Below, one piece after another: positions 4,454 to 46,794 of a stretch of DNA of 64,000 nt (positions are counted from its first letter, which is position 1; each line of letters starts with the position of its first letter). The translations under genes and the position numbers were made by a program. The notes beneath the pieces are model-generated. The model did no database searches and had not been told where the DNA came from. It saw only the letters and a program-made list of their open reading frames with translations. Source of the DNA: Bdellovibrionales bacterium (lineage in GTDB: Bacteria; Bdellovibrionota; Bdellovibrionia; Bdellovibrionales; UBA1609); the NCBI GenBank assembly GCA_019637855.1, contig JAHBUX010000002.1, positions 1 through 64,000 of the forward strand, read 5' to 3'.

Positions 4454-4638
4454 ACCAGGTCTAGTTTACAATTTAAGAGGCCCAGGCAAAAAACCTAAGG
4501 TCGAAAATGGCTGTAAGAGGAAAGTAGCCACGGCAAGGAATCCCGAAGGTGTCCGGCGACATAACGGGCCGTGGCCACGCGTGCTCTTGACGTCATTACT
4601 AACGTCATTGGATGATACGCGCGGGGTTCGGGGGAATC

Positions 4639-5295
4639 ATGAAAAGCGTAAAAATTTTGTTGGCTATCGTTGTCCTTGTCGCGGCCGCAATTTTGGTGGC
4701 TCGCCAGATGCGGCCATCTACGAATATATATAGTGAACCGAATTCCGAATCGCGCGCGGCGGTGATTGGTTTGCCACCACACTCTGAAACCGCCCCGCGC
4801 CAAGAAGCTGACCCTGAACTCAGTAAAGCTCCGCCCGCCGGTCAGGCCTTCCAGGCTTGGCTTACGGAGGAAGCTCGACAAATGGACCTTCCGCATTCGG
4901 ATTCTACGCGCAAGGAGCGCGAGATGACTACGATCGCCACGAAGATGAATGCTCCGCAACGACGCGCTCTGCTCAAAACGGCGCAAGATGCAAAAGCTCC
5001 AGCTGGGGAAAAAATCCTCGCCGCCTATTTGCTCGTGCAAACAGGCGCGGCGGGAACAGAAGAGTTGAAAGAGCTCATCACCTCACCAGTCGCTGTCGGC
5101 GGCGAGGCCCATTCGTTGGCAGAGATGGAATCGATGCGCGATAAAACCCTGCGCATTATGGCTCTTGATGGCCTGTCCAGTCGAGCGCGGGGCGATGACA
5201 AAGCGCGAGCCGCATTAGCGAAGACGATTTCAGAGATACAGGATCCTTATATAAAGAGCTATGCAGAGAGCCAGCTCTCACAAATAAGCGAATGA
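4639..5295 (+). CDS. Membrane-anchored helical protein, unknown function
   Basis: 218 aa from the ATG at 4639, chosen because GGGGGAATC precedes it. Residues 4-24 form one hydrophobic segment (VKILLAIVVLVAAAILVA), an uncleaved anchor or signal, followed by a polar proline-rich linker to about residue 60. The rest is alpha-helical with repeats of about 35 residues (ALLKTAQDAKAPAGEKILAAYLLVQ, then TLRIMALDGLSSRAR), resembling HEAT-like helices in the periplasm. No family is recognised. It is followed 80 bp later by a secreted protein on the same strand. Confidence 0.7.
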   Translation: MKSVKILLAIVVLVAAAILVARQMRPSTNIYSEPNSESRAAVIGLPPHSETAPRQEADPELSKAPPAGQAFQAWLTEEARQMDLPHSDSTRKEREMTTIATKMNAPQRRALLKTAQDAKAPAGEKILAAYLLVQTGAAGTEELKELITSPVAVGGEAHSLAEMESMRDKTLRIMALDGLSSRARGDDKARAALAKTISEIQDPYIKSYAESQLSQISE

Positions 5296-5375
5296 CAGAA
5301 TTCTTAAGAAAATTCTCGTAGCCCTTTCGAATGGCGCGTGTTCCGATTTCCCCGGGGAAAAATAGGGGAGGGGAA

Positions 5376-6737
5376 ATGAGGTTCACAGGGTGGATCTGTT
5401 CATTTGTTCTAATGACGATGGCTGCATCCGTGTACGCCGCAGACAATTGTATCGCGGCTGCCGAAATGCGCGAGATCGCTCGACACTTCACACAGTTTGA
5501 AGGGTTGGCAAAAAAAGGCGAGTTCTGTTTTGACGACACGCCGACGGCCCATCTCTTAGCCGGCATTATGTTCATGCGTAAAACGGACTTTGGTTCGACC
5601 CAGCCAGTGAGTCGCGATGAGCTGTTCTCGGGGCGGTTCAAAAACGATTGGTATGGTTACTTGGTGGGTCGGATTAGTGATTTCCAAATCGATCAAGACT
5701 GTCCTCCCGGAGTGGTGGCTTACGTTTCGTTCTTTAGTACCAGCATGTATGTTTGCCCGTTGGCTCTGACTCCCAGCTTCACCGCTTTGGATCGTGCCAG
5801 TGTGTTTATGCACGAGGCTCGTCACTTGGATGGTTATCCGCATGTGACCTGCTCGCATGGAGCACGTGAGGGCCTGCGCGGCGCCTGTGACACACGTATA
5901 TCGGACGGTGGCTCCTATGCAGTGACGGTTGAGACGTACGCACAGATCTCCAAGTATGCAGGCGGACTGCACCCCGCGTTGCGTGCCTATGCGCGGTCAG
6001 CGGCGATCATTCATGCTGAGGAGACATTTGAAGAACCTGTGCGCATAGATCGTACGGCGCAATTCTTAGTCCTGAGCAAAGATCGTCAGTTTCACTCGCT
6101 GAGCTTGAATGCGGACACCGTGCAGACAAAAGAGCTAGGCAGTCTGCCGGGGTTAGGGCGCATCAATATGCGAGGCCCGTATATGGTCCAATTTCCCGAC
6201 GATAAAACGCAAACCGCCGGTTATGTGTTCTCTCGTAACGAAGGTGAGACCGAACAGCAGGCCGGCGATTTGGTTATCGGCTACAACAAGTCGACGGTAG
6301 CGGAACGCACGGAGTTTATGGAAATGCACTCTAGCGCCCAGTGGAATGCCCAGCTGATGAAGGGGAGCGTTCGTTTCCTCTGTGATCCGCAAAATAAAAC
6401 TCCCACTGAACTGGCATTGAGTGAAGAGCCCGTCGGTTTTATCTATCCGACCGGTTACGATCGGGCCGCGTACACAGTGCAGTTGATGAGTGAGAGCGGG
6501 CGTATCTATGATATCGGCTGCAGCCAGCGCCGGCCTTTCGTGCGCGCCTCACTGCTGGCTTTTGATCAGCCTTACAGGCGTGTTCTTAAAGTCGGTGCCG
6601 ATGTGATTGCTCTGCGCAAAGACGGGCGTTTGTTCCGTCTGAACGGTGCGACCGCGACGCCATTGAACACACCGTTCGATGGGCGTGTGTATGAGTTGGT
6701 TCCGAATCAGCACGTGGAGTTTTTGGACGCCAATTAA
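5376..6737 (+). CDS. Secreted protein with HExxH motif
   Basis: 453 aa. The ATG at 5376 follows GGGGAGGGG, and the first 21 residues are a clean signal peptide ending SVYAAD. Residues 146-150 read HEARH inside FMHEARHLDGYPH, a zinc-protease type HExxH, followed by a Cys pair and a GSYAVTVETYAQ segment that could supply further ligands. The C-terminal half (about 230-450) is beta-rich with repeated short strands, like a propeller or sandwich. Six or more cysteines agree with export. Function is inferred from the motif alone. The last 4 bp overlap the convergent FHA gene. Confidence 0.75.
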   Translation: MRFTGWICSFVLMTMAASVYAADNCIAAAEMREIARHFTQFEGLAKKGEFCFDDTPTAHLLAGIMFMRKTDFGSTQPVSRDELFSGRFKNDWYGYLVGRISDFQIDQDCPPGVVAYVSFFSTSMYVCPLALTPSFTALDRASVFMHEARHLDGYPHVTCSHGAREGLRGACDTRISDGGSYAVTVETYAQISKYAGGLHPALRAYARSAAIIHAEETFEEPVRIDRTAQFLVLSKDRQFHSLSLNADTVQTKELGSLPGLGRINMRGPYMVQFPDDKTQTAGYVFSRNEGETEQQAGDLVIGYNKSTVAERTEFMEMHSSAQWNAQLMKGSVRFLCDPQNKTPTELALSEEPVGFIYPTGYDRAAYTVQLMSESGRIYDIGCSQRRPFVRASLLAFDQPYRRVLKVGADVIALRKDGRLFRLNGATATPLNTPFDGRVYELVPNQHVEFLDAN

Positions 6738-23057: not shown

Positions 23058-25970
23058 ATGAAGGGTCGTATCAAGCTGGGTCGTCGTGGCCTAATCGCTT
23101 TCTGGCTGGGCCTGAGTTTTACCGTCGCTAGTTACTACAATGCTTGTGGACAAGTGAGCTTCGATCAATCTTCCAGCGCGCGCCTGCAGAATATGATGGA
23201 AACGGCGCAGATGCTGATCAATAACAACGACCAGTTCACCAATAGTGACTTGGTGAATCTCTCGCTGACCAGTCAGCAGTCTGACGAAGTCTACGTTACC
23301 AATGATCCTTCCTGCTTGAATGGCGGCCAATGGTCGCCCCTGAACCCGCAGCAGAATTGGACGCTGGGGCAGCTTAATACTCAGGCCCGCGTTTACGCCA
23401 AATTTCGCAACACACGCGAAGGTTTGGAGACTAGCTGTATTAATGACGACATCATTCACGATGACGTGAAGCCAGAGGTGCTTTTGGCTTCTGCTACGGC
23501 CGCCACCAATATTGCGGTGCCGATCGTGGCCTTCGTGGCCACCGACACGCTGTCGGGTTTGGACAAACAGTTTTGTGAGTGGCCGGGGCAACCTGTTGGC
23601 AACTGTAACTTTTCGACCTCAAATGGCAATTTGGCTGAAGGTCGTTATTTAGTGAAAATTTCAGCCAGCGATCGCGCCGGCAACGTTTCTGATCCCAAAG
23701 TGCATGATCTGATTGTCGATCGCACGCCGCCGGTAATCACGATCTTGTCGTCTCCTGCTGCCATCAGCAGCAACACCATGGCCAACTATTCGTTCAACGT
23801 GACGGACGACCGTTCGGGCGTAAAGAGTGTTGAGTGTTCATGGGAAAACAACACGTCCTATGCGGCCTGCGCTTCGCCGTTGGCTAAGAACGTGGGAGAT
23901 GGTTCTCACCAGCTGTTTATTCGCGCCACCGATAAGGCGGGCAATAGCAGCGAAATCTCGCATAGCTTTGCTGTGGACGTGACCGCGCCTACGGTAACGA
24001 TCACTAAAGGGCCGCCGGACTTCTCAAACGTGAAGACAGCTACTTTTGAGTTCATCGGTAAAGACGGTACAGTGGACATCACCAAGTTCGAATGTCGTCT
24101 CGACAATTCGGTCTATGCCTCTTGCTCCAGCCCGCATAGCTATAGCGGTCTGGCAGACGGTATTCACAAGTTCGAAGTGCGCGGCTTTGACGACGTCAAC
24201 AATCCCTCGGCGCCCGCTTCGCGCAGCTGGTATGTGGACACCACACCGCCAGCTATCACTTTCGTAAAAACACCGCCGGCTCTGTCCAACTCGACGAGCG
24301 CCGAATTCAAGTACACCATTACTGACGCGGGATCGGGCGTAGACAAGGCTCAGTGCAGTCTGAATGGCGCTGCGTATGTGGATTGCCCGTTGGATGGTAT
24401 GAGCTACAGTGGTTTGGCTGCCGGCAACCACACGTTCCAAGTGAAAGGTTTCGACAAGGCTGGAAACAGCGCTTTGAGCACGCAAGTGAAGTTCACTATC
24501 GATCTGGCTAAGCCCACACTTCAGTTCACCGACACGCCTGCGGCCATTTCGAATTTGGATCAGTTCAACTTTAAGTTCTTGGCTACGGACGCCAACGGTA
24601 TCGACAAGATGGAATGCCGTTTGGATGCGGGCTCGTTTGTCGCTTGTTCGACGTTAACCAATCATTTGGTAACCGGGCTTACGGATGGCAATCACCAGTT
24701 CACTATCCGCGCCACGGACAAAGCGGGTAATGTTTCTGATCCGCTGACTTACAAATGGTTAGTTGATCTGCAGCCGCCGGTTATTGCTTACTACCAAAGC
24801 CCGCCGGCCTCATTGCTCTCGACTCAGCCGTTGGTATTCGGTTTTACCACGGATGATCCGGGAGGCTCAGGCGTGCAAAGCACGAGCTGTACCCTGAACG
24901 GTGCGGCCTTGGCTTGCCAGTCGGGTGTGTTGATCAATCAAACTTTGCCCGCGGGCACTTACACTGTGGTTATCACGGCCACGGACAAAGCTGGCAACGT
25001 GGCTACCGATACCAAGACCATCGTCATCAGTGCACCCGTGTTGAAGACGGAAAACATCACCATCAACTCGAATCCGAAAGTGGACGTCTTGGTGGTTATG
25101 GATAACTCGGGTTCCATGGACGGCGAAATGGCCAACATGGCTTCACGTATGCAGAACTTTATGGCTCAGTTGAACGGCTTGGAATGGCAACTCGGTATTG
25201 TCACCACCGACACAGCGAGCAACGCGGCTTTGAAAGACGGGCGTATGGTGCCGTTGAAGGACAATCCTTCGCAGTACCTGCTCGACTACAGCATGAATCC
25301 GACGACGGCGAAAAACAGCTTTGCCGCAACGATCAAAATGCCGACCAATGGTTCGGGTAATGAGAACGGCTTCAAGGCGACCATTCGTGCGCTTGAGCGC
25401 TCGCGTGACCCCAGCACCAGCGTGAACGCGCCCAACGTCGCTCTGTTCCGCAATGATGCGGCTTTGGCCGTGATTGTAGTTTCTGACTCCTATGACTCGA
25501 GCGGGACAACGCCTGAGCAGGTGATCGCCAAGGTGAAGAGCTACTGGCCGACCAAAGCTTTCGCCTTCCACTCGATCGTGGTGCCTGAAAGCCAGTACAC
25601 CGATCCGAATGCCACTCGAATCATCTCAGGCGATCCGTGCGGCAGCTATCGCGAGAGTGTTCAGGCTGATGGCCGCGACTATCATCGTTTGTCGGGACTG
25701 ACCGGTGGTATTAAGGGAACGGTGTGTTCAGACGACTACGGCTCACAGTTGAGTGCCATGGGCGAAGTGACTGCGGATCTCGTAAAATCTGTAAGCCTGG
25801 CGTGCCAACCGCTGGATTCCAACGGCGATGGTAAAGTCGATGGTGGTGATGTGACCGTAACTGGTTCCGCCGGTGCGATCACAGGTTTCACCGTGTCGGG
25901 CAATAAGCTGACATTCAACAATGCCTTGCCTGTGGGCAGTGTTAAGTTCGACTACTACTGTATCAACTAG
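23058..25970 (+). CDS. Large lipoprotein: six Ig-like repeats plus vWA domain
   Basis: 970 aa. The N-terminus has a signal segment and a relaxed lipobox (SYYNACGQVSF). About six Ig-like repeats of 86-88 aa begin near residues 136, 221, 307, 394, 482 and 570. Each carries DxxPP at the start and a D.AGN.S motif at the end, plus a Cys pair in most. The vWA domain follows with MIDAS residues D682, S684 and S686 in VVMDNSGSMDG. The C-terminal 200 residues (VCSDDYG, ACQPLD, KLTFNNALP) match the TSR/vWA lipoprotein at 44884-46680. It is likely a surface adhesin; adhesion is an inference. Confidence 0.85.
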   Translation: MKGRIKLGRRGLIAFWLGLSFTVASYYNACGQVSFDQSSSARLQNMMETAQMLINNNDQFTNSDLVNLSLTSQQSDEVYVTNDPSCLNGGQWSPLNPQQNWTLGQLNTQARVYAKFRNTREGLETSCINDDIIHDDVKPEVLLASATAATNIAVPIVAFVATDTLSGLDKQFCEWPGQPVGNCNFSTSNGNLAEGRYLVKISASDRAGNVSDPKVHDLIVDRTPPVITILSSPAAISSNTMANYSFNVTDDRSGVKSVECSWENNTSYAACASPLAKNVGDGSHQLFIRATDKAGNSSEISHSFAVDVTAPTVTITKGPPDFSNVKTATFEFIGKDGTVDITKFECRLDNSVYASCSSPHSYSGLADGIHKFEVRGFDDVNNPSAPASRSWYVDTTPPAITFVKTPPALSNSTSAEFKYTITDAGSGVDKAQCSLNGAAYVDCPLDGMSYSGLAAGNHTFQVKGFDKAGNSALSTQVKFTIDLAKPTLQFTDTPAAISNLDQFNFKFLATDANGIDKMECRLDAGSFVACSTLTNHLVTGLTDGNHQFTIRATDKAGNVSDPLTYKWLVDLQPPVIAYYQSPPASLLSTQPLVFGFTTDDPGGSGVQSTSCTLNGAALACQSGVLINQTLPAGTYTVVITATDKAGNVATDTKTIVISAPVLKTENITINSNPKVDVLVVMDNSGSMDGEMANMASRMQNFMAQLNGLEWQLGIVTTDTASNAALKDGRMVPLKDNPSQYLLDYSMNPTTAKNSFAATIKMPTNGSGNENGFKATIRALERSRDPSTSVNAPNVALFRNDAALAVIVVSDSYDSSGTTPEQVIAKVKSYWPTKAFAFHSIVVPESQYTDPNATRIISGDPCGSYRESVQADGRDYHRLSGLTGGIKGTVCSDDYGSQLSAMGEVTADLVKSVSLACQPLDSNGDGKVDGGDVTVTGSAGAITGFTVSGNKLTFNNALPVGSVKFDYYCIN

Positions 25971-44883: not shown

Positions 44884-46680
44884 TCAGTTCGGGCAAGTGT
44901 ACTTGATCGTCACCTGCGTATTTTCTGGTAGCGCTGGATTAAACTTCAACTGGTCTCCTGTGCGGGTCACTGTAGTGGTAAAGGATGGATTGAATGTCAC
45001 TATTGGGTTGTCGAGGGGCACGCATTGCAGCTGAATTCCGGGCATGCTATTCACCACGCGGTCTTTGATCAGCTTCATGTTGTTGCCGTAGTCGCTATCG
45101 CAGATGCTGGCGATCTGCCCATTGGTTTTGTTGGCCACTTGAGCCAGCAATACGCCTGGGAATGAAGGACTTGATTGCGAATCCTGTTGGGCTTCGCAGG
45201 CCGCGTCGCCCGGTTTCACGATGATGCTGTTCCAAATGAACGGTTTCACAAAACCGCTCGAGTCGAACACGCTGTGCACATAGTTGATCAAAGTGTCAGG
45301 CATGTTCTCATTGGTCAGAGGTTTGTACTGAGCTTGGCTCAACGAGGCATTGCCGCCAACGCTGCGTTCATCTTCATCCGAGATCGCAATCACCGTCAGC
45401 GTGGATTTGTCGCGGAAGCAGCCAGCGTTGGAGGCGCCCGAGTTGGGGCCGAAGTCTTTGATCATCAGGTACGTGGATTTGATCGGCTGCTCGTCCGAGC
45501 TGTATTCCGCTCCGAGCGCGTCCACAGTATTCTTAAACACGGTGTCTTTATTGGCGGTATTTTTATTCAACACGAATTGGCCGCTGGTCCAACGAACCGG
45601 GCTGCCTTTGTAGTAATTCACGTCGGTTGTCGTTAAACAGATTTGGTAGTCGATGTTCAAGGCATCCAGATCGTTTACAAACTGAATCAGTCGACTGGCC
45701 AGTTTGTTCTGGTCTTCTTTCATCGAGGCTGAGTCATCCACGACCAGAATGACGTCCAACAGGTTTTGTGCGGGCGTGACCGTCGCGGTTTGATTTACGG
45801 GTGTGCCTCCCGCCGGGCAGTCTTTCTCTTTGCATGTCTCTTGCGTCGATGGCTTGGCCGTGGCGGCGCAATAGGCAGCGTCGACATAGGCCCCATCGTT
45901 ACGTTTACAGGCGACCGAGCGTGTGCGAATTCCAGGTCCACAATCTTTTGAGCACACCGACCAGGGCTGTGGTTCCCAGGCATAGGTGTAGGGGGTCGGC
46001 GGGCAAGTTTCTTCACCGCAAGTACGGGTGGTGCTTGGTTTTGGCGCGGGACAGAAGCTGTCTGCGACCGTCGAACCATCGCTTTTTTTGCAGGTCACGG
46101 TATCGGTGGCAGTGCCGCCTCCGCACTGAACGGAGCAGGCGCCGGGTTTTACGTCCCACGCGTAAGTGGCCGTGCCGCCACAAACATCGGTGTTGCAAGT
46201 GGCGGAAGTGGCGGGTTTGGGGGAAGAACAGAAGCTATCCGCCACAGTCGTGCCGCTTGAGTTGTTTTGGCAGAGCACGGTGCGCGCCTTCGTACCGCCG
46301 CCGCAGGTTTTGCTGCAGGTGCCGTAGTCGCCGATGTTCCAGCTGTAGGTCGACGAAGTGCAAGCTTGCATTTGGCAAGAGCGTACTCCGGTGGGGCGCG
46401 TGCCGTTGCAGTAGCTATCCGACACGGTCACGCCGTCGGAGGTGCGACGACATTCCGTGGGCGCGATTTGCGAGCCGCCGCCGCACGGCTTGGAGCACAT
46501 GCCGTAGTCGCCGGTGTACCAGTAGTACGTTTCATTACCGCCGCCGGGAGGGCAGTTGCTATTGCCTTCACAGGTCTTGCCGCCGGTGCCGTCGCCTGTC
46601 GGCGAGCGGAAGTCCACCTTGGAGCATGAACCAGTGACAACCACCATAGCGAGCAGTAAGAGCGCATGAATGAAACGCAT
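44884..46680 (-). CDS. Lipoprotein with four thrombospondin type-1 repeats and a vWA domain
   Basis: 598 aa; GGGGGACC precedes the ATG. Lipobox TGSC, lipidated C19. Four repeats of about 60 aa each have six cysteines: 62/66/77/91/102/107, 122/126/137/151/162/167, 182/186/197/210/221/226 and 243/247/258/271/283/288. Each has a Trp (54, 114, 175, 235) before CSxxCGGG or CSxxCGPG, and a KP or RP before the fifth Cys, the layout of TSR group 1. The vWA domain starts near 308 with MIDAS D315, S317, S319 (VVDDSASM). The C-terminus matches the Ig/vWA lipoprotein at 23058. Probable outer surface adhesin; binding partner unknown. Confidence 0.9.
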   Translation of the reverse strand: MRFIHALLLLAMVVVTGSCSKVDFRSPTGDGTGGKTCEGNSNCPPGGGNETYYWYTGDYGMCSKPCGGGSQIAPTECRRTSDGVTVSDSYCNGTRPTGVRSCQMQACTSSTYSWNIGDYGTCSKTCGGGTKARTVLCQNNSSGTTVADSFCSSPKPATSATCNTDVCGGTATYAWDVKPGACSVQCGGGTATDTVTCKKSDGSTVADSFCPAPKPSTTRTCGEETCPPTPYTYAWEPQPWSVCSKDCGPGIRTRSVACKRNDGAYVDAAYCAATAKPSTQETCKEKDCPAGGTPVNQTATVTPAQNLLDVILVVDDSASMKEDQNKLASRLIQFVNDLDALNIDYQICLTTTDVNYYKGSPVRWTSGQFVLNKNTANKDTVFKNTVDALGAEYSSDEQPIKSTYLMIKDFGPNSGASNAGCFRDKSTLTVIAISDEDERSVGGNASLSQAQYKPLTNENMPDTLINYVHSVFDSSGFVKPFIWNSIIVKPGDAACEAQQDSQSSPSFPGVLLAQVANKTNGQIASICDSDYGNNMKLIKDRVVNSMPGIQLQCVPLDNPIVTFNPSFTTTVTRTGDQLKFNPALPENTQVTIKYTCPN

Positions 46681-46794
46681 ATATAGGTCCCCCTAAATAT
46701 GTTTTCGGTCTTTTTGAGACAGATATGGATGTGTTGTTAATAAGTCCGTGCTTTGGTCGAGCGCTTCTCCCGACCAAAGGCTAGAGGCCAGCGC

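Follow-up and report, generated by a model that had tools for sequence, protein, structure and literature searches.

The 64,000-nucleotide stretch of DNA analysed here (the window; positions 1 to 64,000 of contig JAHBUX010000002.1 of a Bdellovibrionales bacterium) encodes a predicted lipoprotein in which four thrombospondin type-1 repeats (TSRs) are placed ahead of a vWA domain with a MIDAS. On the sequence evidence, the protein is a member of the broad Bdellovibrio MIDAS adhesin family. Its TSR-stalked form is a real and conserved variant, so far undescribed in the literature searched; no paper on Bdellovibrio TSRs or on bacterial TSR-vWA proteins was found (search of non-subscription literature). 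The domain types used for movement and entry by the malaria parasite and Toxoplasma are, therefore, also joined in relatives of Bdellovibrio, with the head drawn from a family already tied to prey entry.

The features of the gene and its product are given in Table 1. The ORF starts with an ATG at 46680 and ends in a stop at 44884. Plus-strand ORFs overlapping the gene (e.g. 45801-46637) were rejected as shadows of the repeat coding, and contamination or misassembly was ruled out by the synteny in two other genomes and by the presence of the family in separate public assemblies.

Table 1. Features of the TSR4-MIDAS lipoprotein gene, in positions of the window.
Feature	Residues	Position	Strand	Basis
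TSR4-MIDAS lipoprotein gene, 598 aa		44884..46680	-	ORF, Pfam and NCBIfam matches, 11-member family alignment
Shine-Dalgarno-like AGGGGG upstream of ATG		46689..46694	-	Sequence
Predicted signal peptide and lipobox, Cys19 the putative lipidation site	1-19	46624..46680	-	
TSR 1	51-108	46357..46530	-	PF19030 stretch, family HMM
TSR 2	111-168	46177..46350	-	Best PF19030 match; W and R kept
TSR 3	172-227	46000..46167	-	PF19030 stretch, family HMM
TSR 4	232-289	45814..45987	-	PF19030, family HMM, THSD7A TSR alignment; W and R kept
Small beta-rich domain, N-side strand	292-304	45769..45807	-	Model strand 292-300
vWA/MIDAS domain	305-548	45037..45768	-	AF2 model, NF052240
MIDAS DxSxS motif	315-319	45724..45738	-	Family invariance; Bd0875 alignment
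MIDAS loop-3 SDEDERS	434-440	45361..45381	-	Invariant columns; E436 = Bd0875 E213
Small beta-rich domain, C-side	549-598	44887..45036	-	Model strands 560-597

The initial annotation had claimed four TSRs, each with six cysteines at near-constant spacing, and the spacings were exactly as claimed. All six cysteines were present in each of the four repeats, spaced x3/x10/x13/x10/x4 in two of them and x3/x10/x12/x10/x4 and x3/x10/x12/x11/x4 in the others. When the same 244 residues were shuffled 20,000 times, the six-cysteine pattern occurred 0.004 times on average and twice at most, as compared to the four occurrences observed. Four stretches were matched by Pfam TSP1_ADAMTS (PF19030; 150.7 bits vs cut-off 23.8, E 1.3e-44), and two by TSP_1 (PF00090; 35.9 bits vs cut-off 21.6, E 8.9e-9). 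The Pfam check proposed along with the claim was thus positive for the repeats, with both models above their cut-offs, but not for the vWA domain, for which none of the Pfam vWA models gave a match at E<=1. The W-R stack was also retained only in part: all four repeats have the leading Trp and three of the four the second aromatic, whereas the Arg of the stack (model column 22) is found in repeats 2 and 4 only, repeats 1 and 3 being without it. A cysteine co-loss test for disulphide pairing (expected as 1-5, 2-6 and 3-4) gave no signal; the sixth cysteine was often clipped by local alignments.

The structural predictions agree with the three-stranded TSR fold. A separate AF2 model of the TSR region had a pLDDT of 83, and its top 16 Foldseek matches were all TSR-containing (THSD7A, properdin, thrombospondin-1, complement C6). 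The nearest solved sequences to the protein were THSD7A (E 6e-6) and thrombospondin-1. The model superposed on the Semaphorin-5A TSR at 2.2-2.3 Å across 47-48 residues, while comparison with 8oxr gave a VIA Z of 8.4 and an rmsd of 12.4 Å across two domains, indicating that the inter-domain angle differs. G+C content of the TSR part was 0.62, as compared to 0.48-0.59 around it; recent acquisition, judged by G+C, was not convincing, as only the TSR part was somewhat higher.

A vWA domain with an intact MIDAS, the other half of the claim, is predicted downstream of the repeats. The vWA identity follows from the match to NCBIfam NF052240 (Bdellovibrio MIDAS adhesin; E 1.5e-31, 109.9 bits) and from the predicted fold. 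The AF2 model built from 11 natural homologues (pLDDT 78) showed a vWA fold at residues 305-548, the best fold matches of which by Z were BatB of bacteria (Z 14.7) and the I domains of integrins (Z 14.5; for 1aox, 194 residues at 3.4 Å). The placement of repeats relative to head in the models is not reliable (pTM 0.52 and 0.30). In the model, the vWA lies between strands 292-300 and 560-597, so that the head is set in a small beta-rich domain to which both flanks contribute, and the protein ends in beta strands (VTIKYTCPN) without a transmembrane tail. The DxSxS motif is D315-D-S-A-S319, and D315, S317, S319, S434-D435-E436 and E438-R439-S440 were, among others, invariant in the family alignment. 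When aligned with a Bd0875 orthologue (L155, its start taken six residues into the listed ORF, whereby D72 and E219 become D66 and E213), D315 corresponded to Bd0875 D66 and E436 to Bd0875 E213.

Normal prey entry depends on both of these Bd0875 residues, the MIDAS Asp and the loop-3 Glu, and Bd0875 is located at the predator-prey invasion junction (PMC11003981). Bd0767, Bd1483 and Bd3132 were also tested, but an invasion defect was obtained from Bd0875 only, and its authors tied the invasion role to the cap region (PMC11003981). The Bd0875-type cap insertion, visible in L155, is missing from the window protein. With the cap insertion missing and the phenotype limited to Bd0875, family membership alone is no predictor of an invasion role.

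The protein is predicted to be lipidated and is probably surface-exposed, in line with the initial annotation. Cys19 lies after a hydrophobic segment and is invariant across the TSR-MIDAS family (11-member alignment), and several relatives possess canonical lipoboxes (LTSC, VISC, LAGC). The lipobox of the window copy (VTGSC) is weaker than those of its relatives. The residue at +2 after Cys19 is Ser, not Asp.

Relatives matching the MIDAS adhesin model were present in 144/144 genomes of the class. The stalk slot of these proteins, which separates their common lipobox-V-K-F start from the head, is variable: no stalk is present in L088, PKD-like stalks are present in L086, L090 and L095 (weak matches), and one to four TSRs are present in others. 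A second MIDAS vWA protein is encoded in the window itself (23058-25970, plus strand, 970 aa) and has an Ig-like (Big_13 / OmpL47-type) stalk. The net charge of the TSR regions was only -8 to +2, thereby leaving no strongly basic glycan-binding surface. Since the slot varies (PKD, Ig, none, TSR) and the TSRs are nearly uncharged, we read the TSRs as an interchangeable stalk, and the sequences favour a spacer role over direct binding by the TSRs. With 0, 1, 2 or 4 TSRs, or PKD/Ig in their place, the proteins offer a natural series for asking what effect the stalk has on a MIDAS adhesin.

A repeat-profile search found TSR(1, 2 or 4)-vWA lipoproteins, in three families, in 11/144 genomes of the class (G000, G003, G034, G062 with two genes, G078, G079, G096, G117 with two near-identical genes, G120, G122 and G137). 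A single-protein scan of the genome contigs gave no match, and the alignment-based scan recovered the family. The two one-TSR MIDAS gene copies of G117 (L047:978-2291 and 5244-6557), which are 4266 bp apart and have equal match scores to the window protein, may be either recent duplicates or a repeat in the assembly.

Three genomes (the present one, G003 and G137) had the same gene neighbours, among them genes named from their sequences as TerC-like, GTP cyclohydrolase I and phospholipase D-like. The tree of single TSRs (58 columns) resolved little beyond positional groups in the three syntenic orthologues, among which repeats 1 and 3, and less clearly 4, clustered by position. The shared neighbours and the position-wise clustering indicate vertical inheritance of the four-TSR array from before the split of the genera. 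The window protein is 56% identical to its G003 orthologue, as compared to 42-84% for the neighbours, several of which were at 64-84%, and the TSR-MIDAS gene thus ranks with those of the stretch that change faster. Fast change is common for surface proteins. In the three syntenic pairs, the TSR vs MIDAS parts had identities of 57 vs 61%, 55 vs 57% and 50 vs 61%. The vWA-part tree placed the TSR proteins together with Bdellovibrio MIDAS lipoproteins, including L088 of B. bacteriovorus kdesi, in a clade with 100/99 support. Two changes of the TSR label are needed on this tree, and the TSR-MIDAS fusion may have had a single origin.

TSRs are often called a eukaryotic domain. PF19030 was detected in 42/144 genomes of the class, 49/369 of the phylum, 9/195 of a Myxococcota-centred set and 0/14 controls, genuine TSRs being widespread in one bacterial class. 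In some cases the fusion partner is a probable type IV minor pilin, another surface device (L053:1503-3125, L040:1261-2844, L052:1941-3722 and 4566-6044); the L053 pilin carries an N_methyl motif (E 6.8e-7), and the N-termini of the L040 and L052 proteins resemble that of L053. A lipoprotein of about 930 aa that is widely kept in the order (L054:2927-5755 of the same genome, L161 of B. bacteriovorus kdesi) combines PKD domains with a single TSR, and its C-terminus gives a weak HINT/intein-like match (E 0.03-0.09). Long arrays of TSR-like repeats were also seen, with 5 repeats in L074:2228-6307 and about 12 in L167, several of the latter followed by an extra D-T-D-G Cys segment. In the Myxococcota-centred set, L165:1210-3162 (G524) and L166:151-3156 (G527) have the ADAMTS domain order, viz. 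reprolysin M12B protease, disintegrin, Cys-rich stretch and 3-6 TSRs. Since its product closes with a MYXO-CTERM-like tail, L166 looks like a true bacterial gene. A link of these ADAMTS-like proteins to the origin of bacterial TSRs is possible. None of the Myxococcota TSR loci examined had a MIDAS head fused to TSRs.

Adhesion is the likeliest function of the protein, as the initial annotation had also supposed, to judge by its membership in the MIDAS adhesin family and its retention of the MIDAS residues needed by Bd0875. We propose that it would act as an outer-membrane lipoprotein adhesin anchored through Cys19, in which the four TSRs would form a disulphide-braced stalk reaching past the surface layer of the cell itself. 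The stalk would lead to a small beta-rich hinge domain, built from the two sequences flanking the head, and the integrin-I-like (vWA) head, dependent on a metal, would lie outermost. A divalent metal at the MIDAS would most likely let the head bind its ligand, which would be carried by another cell or surface. The affinity of the head may shift with load, in the way proposed for Bd0875 at the junction between predator and prey. We consider this anatomy, a lipid-anchored TSR rod with a metal-dependent head, and the adhesive role to be probable. Metal and ligand binding and participation in prey attachment are predicted along with it, whereas a role in prey entry itself is put forward with less confidence. 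The source organism is probably predatory, given its relatedness to Bdellovibrio.

Two other assignments of function were considered. The TSRs might themselves bind prey LPS or glycans, and the vWA would then add a force-switched second contact, much like TRAP and MIC2, in which either domain type can touch the host. In animals and parasites, TSRs act as ligand-binding modules, up to four copies of them occur in the family, and in two of the three syntenic pairs the TSR part has diverged about as fast as the MIDAS part. The TSRs are, however, nearly neutral in comparison with the basic glycosaminoglycan-binding TSRs, and the number of TSRs and the type of stalk change while the head is kept, so that we regard binding by the TSRs as a minority possibility. 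Slightly less likely still is a function outside prey invasion, either in surface motility, as traction for gliding or twitching, or in contact between cells, like that of Myxococcus CglB or the MIDAS-related lipoprotein CglD. Related MIDAS lipoproteins from B. bacteriovorus and from the present genome do match the CglD model NF033765 (E 5e-8 to 8e-10, below cut-off), but the TSR4-MIDAS protein had no match to it at E<=1, and its conserved neighbours, judged from sequence, are not motility genes. CglB and CglD are likewise bacterial vWA surface proteins of gliding adhesion, and CglB, which has a vWA domain, mediates adhesion to the substrate during gliding (PMC13104615); they differ from the window protein in being without TSRs in the literature consulted.

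The initial annotation had further likened the domain set to that of apicomplexan invasion adhesins, leaving convergence and domain transfer side by side. Kinship with those adhesins was not supported. When the repeat profile was searched against PDB entries, to which this comparison is confined, the animal TSRs of THSD7A (E 3e-13) and thrombospondin-1 (E 2e-11) were matched over most or all of the domain, whereas those of TRAP (E 0.09) and MIC2 (E 0.43) were matched over fragments. It is thus very improbable that the protein is a true TRAP/MIC2 relative derived by domain transfer between parasite and bacterial predator, even though both domain types occur in one surface protein and the TSR superposes on that of P. 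vivax TRAP (4hqo; Z 3.5, 2.8 Å, 48 residues): besides the far closer animal TSRs, the vWA nests among bacterial MIDAS adhesins found in every genome of the class, the domain order is reversed, the anchor is a lipid and the tail is absent. The vWA domains of TRAP and MIC2 were absent among the best 50 matches listed for the whole model, which proves nothing. As the vWA half is native to the class, the TSRs are nearer to animal ones and order, anchor and tail differ, the pairing looks like convergence in domain choice from a shared toolkit; of the two origins left side by side, convergence is the better reading, in keeping with the reversed order, and apicomplexan transfer is disfavoured. A more specific form of convergence, in which an animal-type TSR crossed domains of life and was placed under an old bacterial MIDAS head, giving an equivalent of TRAP/MIC2 for force-sensitive predator-prey coupling, is speculative.

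Comparison of Bdellovibrio MIDAS proteins with TRAP/MIC2 has already been published for Bd0875, without TSRs (PMC11003981). The window protein resembles TRAP and MIC2 in having a MIDAS-bearing vWA and TSRs together in one surface protein, and in belonging to an organism that would enter other cells, in this case by relatedness to Bdellovibrio only. In TRAP/MIC2, however, the vWA precedes the TSR and a transmembrane span leads to a motor-linked cytoplasmic tail, whereas here the TSRs (51-289) precede the vWA (305-548), and the protein has a predicted lipid anchor and ends in beta strands. With the animal TSR proteins (THSD7A, thrombospondin-1, ADAMTS), it shares the six-cysteine TSR and, in part, the PF19030-type W...W...R pattern, THSD7A being the top match in both sequence and fold, but the animal proteins are without the MIDAS lipoprotein context. 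Animal TSRs are C-mannosylated and O-fucosylated. Bd0875 is similar in being a lipoprotein with DxSxS and a loop-3 acidic residue, a vWA between beta-rich halves and a C-x-x-V-K-F start. It differs in that the window protein scores 110 bits against the NF052240 equivalog cut-off of 700, is without the cap insertion and has a four-TSR stalk between anchor and head. The stalked MIDAS lipoproteins L086, L090 and L095, together with L088, have vWA heads 33-40% identical to that of the window protein within the one 100/99 clade, and differ from it in the stalk, which is PKD-like or absent in them and made of TSRs in the window protein.
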